From Arcobacter sp. FWKO B (lineage in GTDB: Bacteria > Campylobacterota > Campylobacteria > Campylobacterales > Arcobacteraceae): a DNA stretch of 64,000 bases. The stretch spans positions 806,001 through 870,000 of the forward strand of contig NZ_CP041403.1 in the NCBI RefSeq assembly GCF_014844135.1, given 5' to 3'. Both the position numbers and the translations under genes were made by a program. Numbering within the stretch: position 1 is the first letter of the stretch; every line of letters begins with the position of its first letter. Under the pieces are notes generated by a model that made no database searches, was not told where the DNA came from, and saw only the letters and a list, made by a program, of their open reading frames with translations. Positions 9,088 through 34,314 of the stretch are shown here, piece after piece.

Positions 9088-9101
9088 TTGACCTGAGTCA
9101 A
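9088..9101 (-). promoter_or_regulatory. Fnr-type box upstream of napA
   Basis: TTGACCTGAGTCAA, a dyad matching the Crp/Fnr-family consensus. With its centre at -41.5, the start point is near 9053 and a -10 hexamer TACAAT falls at 9064-9059, close to the expected place. It probably drives the nap operon. Confidence 0.72.
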
Positions 9102-10635: not shown

Positions 10636-11289
10636 TTATTCATAGCAAGATTTCAACCCATCTAAATCTACTATTTTAATATTTTGTCCATCATTTTGTA
10701 TATAATTGTTTCTAAAAAGTTTGTTAAGTATCCTAGAGAGAGTTTCAGGCTGAATATTTAACATATATGCTATTTCACCTTTTTTTAGGCTATTAAAGCT
10801 TTCTAAGTCATGTGCTAGCATAAATGCAACTTTTGCAGTACCATCAAAAACTATTTCACGATTTATTATACACTGTAACATCTTAGTTTTTTTTGCAAAT
10901 TCTTTAATAAGATTTAATAAAAACTTATTATTAGTAGAAAAAATGTCTTTAAATGTAGAATAATCAAATACTAATACTTCACTATCTTTTGTAAATTCTG
11001 CATTTGCAAAACAACCTATATTACCATCTAAATCTGTTATTTCAGATATTAAGCTACCTTTGTTGATATTATACATAAAAATTTCATTATCAAGTCTATC
11101 AACTTTGTATATCTTCAAACTTCCACTTGCAAGGTAATATATACTATCTTGCTTATCTTTTTCATAATATAAAATATTGCCTGTATAAAACTTTTTTAAT
11201 GTAGTGACTTGAGCAAGTAGATCAATCTCTTCAGTACTTAAATCAAAAAATAGCTGATGATTTTCAAAATATTCACTTGAAATAGCCAA
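10636..11289 (-). CDS. Crp/Fnr-family transcription regulator (nitrosative/anaerobic type)
   Basis: 217 residues from TTG 11289, chosen because GGAGGG lies 7 bases before it; a GTG at 11304 overlaps that site. A cyclic-nucleotide-type beta roll (about 20-115) and a dimer helix are followed by a winged helix with IAYMLNIQPETLSRILNKL. Glu, Ser and Arg of ETLSR match Fnr residues that read TTGAT sites. The N-terminal iron-sulfur cysteines of true Fnr are absent, so a haem- or NO-sensing NssR/Dnr-like mode is more likely. A matching box at 11350 suggests autoregulation. It precedes the PilJ-type sensor in one operon. Confidence 0.85.
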   Translation of the reverse strand: MAISSEYFENHQLFFDLSTEEIDLLAQVTTLKKFYTGNILYYEKDKQDSIYYLASGSLKIYKVDRLDNEIFMYNINKGSLISEITDLDGNIGCFANAEFTKDSEVLVFDYSTFKDIFSTNNKFLLNLIKEFAKKTKMLQCIINREIVFDGTAKVAFMLAHDLESFNSLKKGEIAYMLNIQPETLSRILNKLFRNNYIQNDGQNIKIVDLDGLKSCYE

Positions 11290-11349
11290 AATAATACCCT
11301 CCACCTTAAAACATACATGTTAAGTTAGCACGATAAGTACGAAAAATCC

Positions 11350-11363
11350 TTGACCTAGATCAA
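11350..11363 (-). promoter_or_regulatory. Fnr-type box of the Crp/Fnr regulator gene
   Basis: TTGACCTAGATCAA. A centre at -41.5 gives a start near 11315 with TAACTT at 11327-11322 as -10, about 26 bp before the TTG start. It lies between the RNA element at 11408 and the gene. Confidence 0.65.
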
Positions 11364-11407
11364 AAAGTAACATAAAACAAGTTAAAAGGAGATTAAAATA
11401 GAGGTAA

Positions 11408-11500
11408 ACTGACAACTTAACAAATCATTTTTCTAGTACAAGGGAGGTGTTGTTGACTTATTGATAAGATGATTATATTTGTAGCGTTAAGCTATCAGTC
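11408..11500 (-). ncRNA. Candidate structured RNA A with anti-Shine-Dalgarno-like loop
   Basis: Read on the minus strand, 11499-11486 pairs with 11421-11408 (12 of 14 pairs) and 11474-11469 pairs with 11428-11423 (AAUCAU/AUGAUU), enclosing a small UUAUCAAUAA hairpin and a core AGUCAACAACACCUCC followed by CUUGUACUA. The same core and architecture occur at 23225-23336. An Fnr-type box centred at 11541.5 places transcription start at 11500, exactly at the base of the stem, with TATTCT at 11512-11507 as -10. It could be a free small RNA of about 95-110 nt or the 5' leader of the regulator gene. No strong U-tract follows, so the 3' end is uncertain. Confidence 0.6.
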
Positions 11501-11534
11501 TGTGAAAGAATATCAAATAAAAAAAAACTTTTCC

Positions 11535-11548
11535 TTGACACAAATCAA
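11535..11548 (-). promoter_or_regulatory. Fnr-type box driving RNA element A
   Basis: TTGACACAAATCAA. On the minus strand its centre is 41.5 bp from the start of the RNA A closing stem. It may also affect the divergent ygbA promoter, whose own box lies 38 bp away. Confidence 0.62.
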
Positions 11549-20934: not shown

Positions 20935-20948
20935 TTGATTCATATCAA
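20935..20948 (+). promoter_or_regulatory. Fnr-type promoter box of hcp
   Basis: TTGATTCATATCAA. With the centre at -41.5 the start is near 20983, and TAAACT at 20971-20976 occupies the -10 position. Confidence 0.72.
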
Positions 20949-22532: not shown

Positions 22533-23126
22533 CTATCTTATTATCCTAATAGCATTTTGCTTATGATTTAATAAAATCTCTTTTACTCTTCTTTGCCATT
22601 GCTGACCAAAAAGTTGAGCTTCTTCTTCTGTAGCTCTATTTGAAATAACTTTTTGCATAAGATTAAAGTTGATATCACTTATAGCTAGATTTGATATATC
22701 ATAGCTTACCTCTACGCTTTGGTTGTTATCAAGTCTTGTAAATTTCATTTCACCATTGATTTTTTTGTCATAAAACAATCTATTATTTCTTGCAAAATTG
22801 CCATTTAAACCTTTGAAACCATCTTCTTCTTTTGCCCCTGTTATAAAAGATGCTACATTAGCCATAACACCTATAACTCCATCAGCTTTTTTACCTTTCA
22901 TTTCTATCTTTACATTACCTCTTGTTGGAAGCTCATCTTTATGCAAAGCCTTAAGTGCAGCCAATGTCATAAGATATGCACCAGCTACTGTAGGGCAAGA
23001 GTGTCCACTAAGCTTTACAACATCTTCATAAGAAAAAACAACTGTTTTTGGAAGTCCCAGTACAAAGCCAAGAGGCTCAAACATCTCTATTTTTTCTACA
23101 TTATTAAAAAAATCCAAATATTCCAT
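22533..23126 (-). CDS. FmdE family protein
   Basis: 197 residues with the FmdE signature SYEDVVKLSGHSCPTVAGAYL near residues 32-52, giving the conserved His and Cys of the putative metal site. FmdE was named from the molybdenum formylmethanofuran dehydrogenase operon; in non-methanogens its role is unknown, though it is often near molybdenum or iron-sulfur genes. AGGAG precedes the ATG. It has an Fnr-type promoter at 23175 and, further upstream, RNA element B with a second box, the same order as at the Crp/Fnr gene. Confidence 0.82.
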   Translation of the reverse strand: MEYLDFFNNVEKIEMFEPLGFVLGLPKTVVFSYEDVVKLSGHSCPTVAGAYLMTLAALKALHKDELPTRGNVKIEMKGKKADGVIGVMANVASFITGAKEEDGFKGLNGNFARNNRLFYDKKINGEMKFTRLDNNQSVEVSYDISNLAISDINFNLMQKVISNRATEEEAQLFGQQWQRRVKEILLNHKQNAIRIIR

Positions 23127-23174: not shown

Positions 23175-23188
23175 TTGATTTGTATCAA
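23175..23188 (-). promoter_or_regulatory. Fnr-type box of the FmdE-like gene
   Basis: TTGATTTGTATCAA. A centre at -41.5 gives a start near 23140 with TAAACT at 23152-23147 as -10, leaving a 14-base leader. Confidence 0.7.
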
Positions 23189-23224: not shown

Positions 23225-23336
23225 TATAACCAGCCAATTTGTTTACTCGTATCTTTAAAGTAGTACAAAGGAGGTGTTGTTGACTATTAAGTAAGGTTAT
23301 ATGAAAAATCACATATTTACAAAGTAGCTGGCTATA
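23225..23336 (-). ncRNA. Candidate structured RNA B, homologue of element A
   Basis: On the minus strand 23336-23320 pairs with 23241-23225 in 14 of 17 positions, and 23294-23290 with 23247-23243 (UUACU/AGUAA), enclosing AGUCAACAACACCUCC followed by UUUGUACUA. The core is nearly identical to element A, while stem sequences differ but still pair, which supports a conserved structure. An Fnr-type box centred at 23377.5 places transcription start at 23336, the first base of the stem, with TAATAT at 23348-23343 as -10. CACCUCCUUU equals the tail of 16S rRNA that pairs with ribosome sites. It may be a free small RNA or a leader of the FmdE-like gene. Confidence 0.62.
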
Positions 23337-23370
23337 AGTAGAATATTATCAAATTTATAAACTTAATTCT

Positions 23371-23384
23371 TTGATGTTTGTCAA
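23371..23384 (-). promoter_or_regulatory. Fnr-type box driving RNA element B
   Basis: TTGATGTTTGTCAA, centred 41.5 bp from the first base of the RNA B stem on the minus strand. No protein gene starts within 200 bp on that side, so an RNA target is the simplest reading. Confidence 0.62.
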
Positions 23385-33687: not shown

Positions 33688-34314
33688 ATGTATAAAATAC
33701 TCAAACAAATAGATTTTTTTGCCAACTTTAGTGATGAAGACTTTGCAAAACTAGACCAACATATATCTTTCAAAAAATACAATAAAGACAATATCATATT
33801 TTATGAGTCAGATATACCAAAATATTTTTATATACTAATAAGTGGCAATGTCCATGCCACAAAATCAAACTTCAAAAATAATCCAGTTTTAATAAACACA
33901 TTTAGACCAATATCATTTATAGCAGAAATGGCAGTAATAGAAAACATCCCTTTCCCTGCAACTGCAACATGTGCTGATGAGTGTGAAATCATCCAAATCA
34001 CAAAAGAACCATTGCTTAATCTAATAAAATCAGACACAAACATAGCCTTTGGTATCATAAAATCCCTCACTAAAAAAATAAAAACTCTAGAACACACTAT
34101 TAATATAAATATTTTATTTGATGCCAACCAAAAAGTAATGTCACATATCTTACACAACCCAGACTCACTAAAAACATCAAAACACAACCACATAGCAAAA
34201 ATTCTAAATCTAACTCCAGAGACCCTTTCAAGAACAGTAAAAAAACTAAAAGACCAAGATATCATAGATGAAGATTATAATATTGATATAGAAAAATTGA
34301 AATCGTTGATATAA
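33688..34314 (+). CDS. Crp/Fnr-family regulator, second copy
   Basis: 208 residues. A cyclic-nucleotide-type sensor roll (about 15-115, with KYFYILISGNVHATK) is followed by a dimer helix and a short winged helix with HIAKILNLTPETLSRTVKKL. The recognition helix again contains ETLSR, suited to TTGAT sites. No Fnr-type cysteine cluster. It precedes a hemerythrin gene whose promoter has a TTGAT-N4-ATCAA box, so it may control that operon or compete with the first regulator for the same sites. Confidence 0.86.
   Translation: MYKILKQIDFFANFSDEDFAKLDQHISFKKYNKDNIIFYESDIPKYFYILISGNVHATKSNFKNNPVLINTFRPISFIAEMAVIENIPFPATATCADECEIIQITKEPLLNLIKSDTNIAFGIIKSLTKKIKTLEHTININILFDANQKVMSHILHNPDSLKTSKHNHIAKILNLTPETLSRTVKKLKDQDIIDEDYNIDIEKLKSLI

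Follow-up and report, generated by a model that had tools for sequence, protein, structure and literature searches.

Structured RNAs with an anti-Shine–Dalgarno loop downstream of FNR/Nss-type boxes in Arcobacter sp. FWKO B: candidate trans-acting small RNAs

Does the intergenic region upstream of the FmdE-family gene of Arcobacter sp. FWKO B encode an RNA and, if so, what might that RNA do? An earlier note on this DNA, a stretch of 64,000 nucleotides (contig NZ_CP041403.1, positions 806,001 to 870,000; here called the window), described the locus as the second copy of a structured RNA that shares its core, fold, promoter spacing and gene order with a first copy, element A, and regarded the pair as strong evidence for a real RNA family.

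Element B, its paralogue and their promoters

The region under study, element B, comprises a long closing stem and a small core hairpin, preceded by a box of the FNR/Nss type. Its features are:

23225..23336, minus strand: RNA element B, 112 nt, with its putative 3′ end placed at the end of the closing stem
23325..23336, minus strand: 5′ arm of the 12-bp closing stem, beginning at the predicted +1 and pairing with 23225–23236
23225..23236, minus strand: 3′ arm of the closing stem, aligned column by column with those of element A and of the congeneric genomes G001 and G002
23262..23285, minus strand: core hairpin, AGU(CA)ACAA, loop CACCUCCU (23269–23276), UUGUACU
23371..23384, minus strand: FNR/Nss-type box TTGACAAACATCAA, centred on 23377.5, at −41.5
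23343..23348, minus strand: −10-like TAATAT, at −12 to −7
23175..23188, minus strand: second box, TTGATACAAATCAA, putative promoter of the downstream fmdE-like gene
22533..23126, minus strand: FmdE-family gene downstream of B (197 aa; Pfam PF02663)

The predicted fold of element B is more stable than that of any of 200 shuffled sequences (z value of −4.26), and the minimum-free-energy structure contains the ACAA/UUGU portion of the core hairpin. The 16-nt core AGUCAACAACACCUCC is part of minus-strand element B. As the earlier note had it, element A carries the same core: the window contains AGTCAACAACACCTCC at two places and no more (11443–11458 and 23270–23285, both on the minus strand), and these are the only perfect occurrences in the whole 2.24-Mb genome. 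The block common to A and B is longer than the core given there, extending over 25 nt (AGTCAACAACACCTCCYTTGTACTA) with one difference. Other GGAGGTGTTG sites in the genome lie within open reading frames and were set aside. A tandem-repeat region at G000:C1:192935–199606 (L003–L009), probably within a large repetitive gene, contains ATCAACAACAGCTCC in nearly identical form at seven sites, six of which follow a spacing of 663 bases.

Element A is organized in the same way:

11407..11500, minus strand: RNA element A, 94 nt, a paralogue found in the window species only
11435..11458, minus strand: core hairpin, loop CACCUCCC
11535..11548, minus strand: box TTGATTTGTGTCAA, centred at −41.5 from 11500
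11507..11512, minus strand: −10-like sequence TATTCT
11350..11363, minus strand: second box, putative promoter of the downstream regulator gene
10636..11304, minus strand: CRP/FNR-superfamily regulator gene downstream of A (Pfam cNMP_binding and HTH_Crp_2), a candidate activator

The fold of element A is moderately stable (z value of −2.15; 6 of 200 shuffles equally stable). Both closing stems pair despite their different bases, over 12 bp in B and 16 bp in A; both sides have changed in 4 of 11 pairs compared, and shifting the partner by 1–3 columns abolishes the pairing. At both loci the distance from box to stem places the predicted start on the first stem base, 23336 for B and 11500 for A, given a box centred at −41.5. 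This coincidence is not ascribable to chance, since a stem of at least 12 bp starting from a given base, with its partner 80–130 nt away, is found at only 0.12% of window positions, and one of at least 16 bp in the same geometry at 0.004%. No intrinsic terminator was found in searches after elements A and B; the 3′ end of the RNA is therefore a guess, and transcription could continue into the next gene.

The surroundings of the two copies hint at the conditions under which they may be expressed. Matches to the FNR-type box TTGAYNNNNRTCAA number 12 in the window against 0.8 expected, and these palindromes (window positions 9088–34319) appear to mark a nitrate/NO/anaerobic regulon, as they precede or flank napA, the regulator gene, ygbA, hcp, fmdE, a MOSC gene, nrdD, a cytochrome c gene and a hemerythrin gene. 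The box before hcp (20935–20948) overlaps the first listed ATG of that gene (20948), so that the true hcp start probably lies further downstream. Locus A is situated between ygbA (PF11756, NO-linked by annotation) and the regulator gene, which is followed by a gene for a PilJ-domain sensor-like protein, and locus B is flanked by fmdE and an ankyrin-repeat/catalase pair. The proximity of ygbA, hcp, hemerythrin and FNR/Nss-type boxes suggests NO-induced expression of the RNA. Inspection of the regulator sequence (10636–11304) revealed no N-terminal Cys cluster, and for that reason the protein probably resembles regulators of the Nss/DNR type rather than the classical oxygen-sensing FNR; three CRP/FNR proteins are detectable in the genome, and another regulator gene of the window occupies 33688–34314.

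Conservation of the RNA within one genus

A covariance model, R1, was built from elements A and B, the latter scoring 132 bits as one of its own training sequences. The earlier note would have taken a lack of further genomic copies, coupled with transcriptional silence of both regions, as refutation, and the first half of this applies: R1 yields no third copy in the own genome, where it finds A and B only and the weak additional matches (18 bits) are attributable to chance. Its search of 104 family genomes returns two further convincing matches, both in the same genus, in G001 (41.5 bits, E value of 3.6e-6) and G002 (36.2 bits, E value of 6e-5). An orthologous RNA with intact fold and other stem bases is thus present at the fmdE-like locus in two of three congeneric genomes, and the order box, RNA, box, gene, common to loci A and B, recurs in both. 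The ends of the G002 RNA were set by the box-defined start, the placement by the model being wrong, and the resulting stem is the same as that of G001.

In all four RNAs the 12 closing-stem columns pair one-to-one, the sole failure being the terminal pair of G002. Several pairs show double changes; the variation is, for example, between C-G and U-A (pair 3), U-A and A-U (pair 4), A-U and C-G (pair 6), A-U and G-C (pair 8), and U-A, U-G and A-U (pair 11). The four stems contain 3, 2, 1 and 1 wobble pairs, which would become A-C mismatches on the plus strand, identifying minus as the functional strand. The core hairpin shows a compensatory change as well: its third pair, U-A, is replaced by C-G in G001 and G002 (AGC(A)ACAA-CACCUCCU-UUGUGCU) with the loop unchanged. 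The loop, CACCUCCY, is invariant in all four copies and is formed in the minimum-free-energy folds of both A and B. The promoter geometry is equally constant, with a box at −41.5 and TAnTnT at −12 to −7 in all four copies, and a second box lies between RNA and gene at all four loci.

The orthologous intergenic region at the regulator (crp) locus of G001 and G003 lacks RNA A; in these genomes the locus consists of ygbA, a single box and the regulator gene. On this basis A looks like an extra copy acquired in the window species and B like the conserved copy. What the earlier note calls the second copy is thus better seen as the conserved one, and A as the species-specific addition. G003 yielded neither the RNA in the R1 search nor an fmdE-like gene, an absence left unproven by its draft state. 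Orthologues of fmdE are found in 76 of the 104 family genomes.

No homologues outside the genus were detected by R1 with fast filters among the 104 family genomes, and a sample of 399 genomes of the order, searched likewise with fast filters, returned the window genome only. None of the remaining family matches to the model (E values of 0.0017–0.5) has an FNR box upstream. Matches to the core with at most one mismatch in 60 relatives, outside the window genome, have neither box nor matching element and apparently lie in coding regions; those to a 20-nt pattern (five in genome contigs and one in viral contigs) are scattered over unrelated phyla at about chance level. Rfam contains no match to the window RNA at any relevant score. 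The family is narrow, comprising one genus and four sequences, and, as the recovery of the G001 and G002 orthologues by the two-sequence model argues, the RNA is very probably real.

Two observations concern the neighbourhood of the orthologous RNAs. The fmdE-like gene of G002 (L037:105–652) is split into two frames, either as a pseudogene or through an assembly error, and the RNA upstream of it keeps its core. Between the RNA and the second box of G001 and G002, an inverted repeat AGGATAA...TTATCCT and a GTCCTC segment (L036:1620–1680 and the same region of L037) form a possible extension of the RNA.

The anti-Shine–Dalgarno loop and competing explanations

The three 16S rRNA genes of the genome end with TTGGATCACCTCCTTTCA, and the loop of B, extended by two bases, reproduces the 16S rRNA 3′ end of its own genome, CACCTCCTTT. 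In B-type RNAs the loop and the bases after it, CACCUCCUUU, match the 16S tail without a difference over 10 nt; the corresponding stretch in A is CACCUCCCUU. Potential targets were scored among 63 start regions in total, namely those with GGAGGU upstream of an ATG in the genome together with the window genes. The best of the 63 is that of cydA, which encodes cytochrome bd oxidase subunit I (PF01654) and has the Shine–Dalgarno (SD) sequence UACAAGGGAGGU. This site is predicted to form 12 continuous, perfect base pairs with ACCUCCCUUGUA of A, and 12 bp including one G-U with B. Shuffles of the 3′ flank of the RNA match the cydA pairing energy in 0.15% of cases for A and in 1% for B, values that carry no correction for the choice of cydA as the best of 63. 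In G001 and G002, which are related to each other and for which the tests were fixed in advance, the orthologous cydA pairs with the RNA of its own genome over 6+8 bp (0.55% of shuffles in G002 and 6% in G001). The cydA start region of G003, where no RNA was detected, is nearly identical to that of G002, and an upstream reading frame has its end in the start region, so that the match may be partly coincidental. We regard cydA as a good candidate target, predicted from complementarity. The loop pairs weakly, and without conservation, with the SDs of the fmdE genes (UAGGAG, AAAGGC and AAAGGG).

These features are best explained, and with reasonable though not high confidence, by a trans-acting small RNA that is activated by an FNR/Nss-type regulator and blocks SD sites with its loop. 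Element B, with its paralogue A, would be the gene for a small regulatory RNA of about 94–117 nt. Its transcription would be switched on by a class II activator of the CRP/FNR superfamily that resembles FNR or Nss, senses nitrate, NO or low oxygen and binds TTGAY-N4-RTCAA at −41.5. The RNA would begin at the first base of the 12–16-bp closing stem, which would shield both ends, and its 3′ end may be formed by RNase III trimming, as for CJnc190 of Campylobacter jejuni. The small inner hairpin would display CACCUCCY, the copy of the ribosomal anti-SD tail, as a loop, which together with its 3′ side would pair with the strong SDs of selected mRNAs and block ribosome binding. Translation of these mRNAs, with cydA as the best predicted target, would then be lowered under inducing conditions. 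What the sequences themselves show is the covarying fold, the promoter geometry, the orthologues, the identity of the loop with the 16S tail and the complementarity to cydA; transcription, inducer, 3′ end formation and repression are what we infer for the window RNA.

Action in trans is favoured because pairing with the fmdE SDs is unconserved while the loop is invariant, because the genes downstream of A and B are unrelated to each other, and because each of these genes has its own box. The same observations weigh against the reading of the element as a cis-acting 5′ leader, in which a transcript from the distal box would run through it into fmdE or the regulator gene, with control by attenuation or masking of the ribosome-binding site and the second box serving as an internal promoter. 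The main point in favour of such a leader is the missing terminator after the element, and in three species it is the same gene that immediately follows the element. A parallel exists in the genus g10, where another covarying RNA, likewise with a C-rich loop and beginning behind an FNR-type box, lies in front of fmdE; as g10 has no second box, that RNA should belong to the fmdE leader. However, copy A precedes an unrelated gene, the dedicated second box at all four loci argues against sole dependence on the distal one, and the pairing of the loop with its own SD is weak, which together make a cis leader unlikely. Less probable still is an RNA directed at a protein or at the ribosome, whose closed stem and mimicry of the 16S tail would constitute a decoy or a general brake on translation without choice of mRNAs. 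The 10-nt identity with the 16S 3′ end and the invariance of the loop would suit this role, as would the unrelated functions spanned by the best-pairing start regions sampled, but most SDs seen in the genome are short (AGGA/GGAG) and pair poorly with the loop, and the best targets need pairing beyond the SD. Equally doubtful is a related and broader proposal, that a closed, protected mimic of the 16S 3′ end, switched on under nitrate, NO or low oxygen, might compete for strong SDs genome-wide and so bias translation towards mRNAs with weak SDs.

Two further explanations dispense with a functional RNA. The elements could owe their likeness to chance, or A and B could be functionless recent duplicates, as might be expected from the narrow distribution and from the confinement of copy A to the window species. 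This is very improbable in view of stems that have diverged with compensatory changes, the invariant loop and the −41.5 spacing, seen across species with no more than 71% identity between their fmdE proteins. Finally, the conserved block might be no RNA but the perfect SD and start codon (AAAGGAGGTGTTG) of a small plus-strand gene. The plus strand does read AAGGAGGTGTTGTTG, an ideal ribosome-binding site, but in both A and B the frames that follow are only a few codons long, and on that strand the wobbles of the closing stem are A-C mismatches; of all the readings, we give this one the least credence.

Relation to known small RNAs and significance

The likely trans-acting RNA has several counterparts of similar function. 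FnrS of E. coli and an FNR-activated small RNA of N. gonorrhoeae are driven from a site of the FNR type whose centre is at −41.5 (PMC3032703), as is the case here for a putative short non-coding transcript, and cydDC is among the aerobic-respiration functions that FnrS represses in E. coli (PMC8139620). The window RNA differs from FnrS in lacking a sequence match and a Rho-independent terminator, and in its closed-stem architecture and anti-SD loop. RoxS/RsaE of Firmicutes are NO-linked or NO-induced and have C-rich target-binding regions (PMC8216469); they share with the window RNA the C-rich target binding and the NO link, both predicted here, but differ in fold, promoter type (ResDE/Rex) and phylum, and no Rfam match to them was obtained.

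Within the same phylum, CJnc190 uses a C/U-rich loop to block a G-rich ribosome-binding site, and RNase III cuts the mature RNA from an intramolecular duplex (PMC8687705). It has no relation in sequence or locus to the window RNA and, unlike it, has an antisense partner (CJnc180) and is not known behind an FNR-type box; it may nevertheless serve, by analogy, as a precedent for an RBS-blocking C/U-rich loop and for a mature end made by RNase III. RepG of Helicobacter pylori, also of this phylum, likewise acts through a C/U-rich loop (PMC8295292, PMC8687705), but targets a G-repeat leader and is unrelated in sequence. Short anti-SD motifs are found in AbcR1/2 and NfeR1 of Sinorhizobium meliloti, those of AbcR1/2 being located in part within a hairpin loop (PMC8844928); AbcR1 and AbcR2 are sibling RNAs, as A and B are, whereas their motif (CUCCUCCC), fold and regulators differ from those of the window RNA. 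Unnamed, genus-restricted motifs have been reported from a search of a single Arcobacter genome (PMC6429828). As none of the systems compared matches it by sequence, fold or terminator, the window RNA would appear to represent a new family, though one of a functional kind already known.

The RNA of genus g10 deserves separate description. In ten species (L060–L069) it lies between the FNR-type box and fmdE (for example, L064:2114–2195, minus strand) and consists of a 5′ hairpin followed by a long stem with the loop GCCCCURAAUCUCUCC, with double changes in 9 of 18 predicted pairs. Its model, R2, matches 11 genomes, all of g10 and none of the window genus, so that it was rejected as a homologue of element B; three of its loci scanned against Rfam gave no match. 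Position, box and C-rich loop are common to both RNAs, but fold and core differ, and the g10 RNA is best treated as a related finding, not as an established homologue. In L060 the g10 leader RNA is preceded, at a distance of about 1.3 kb, by an abiF RNA (L060:3469–3505; RF03085; 45.2 bits, above the gathering score).

Taken with the unrelated g10 RNA before fmdE, the window RNA suggests that this family has repeatedly evolved RNAs with C-rich loops downstream of FNR-type boxes. With its loop a letter-for-letter copy of the ribosomal anti-SD tail, the window RNA offers in its predicted target cydA a clear and cheap test. If the proposed mode of action is correct, elements A and B would represent an undescribed RNA family that ties an FNR/Nss-type regulator, and hence nitrate, NO or oxygen, to post-transcriptional control in a genus of Campylobacterota.
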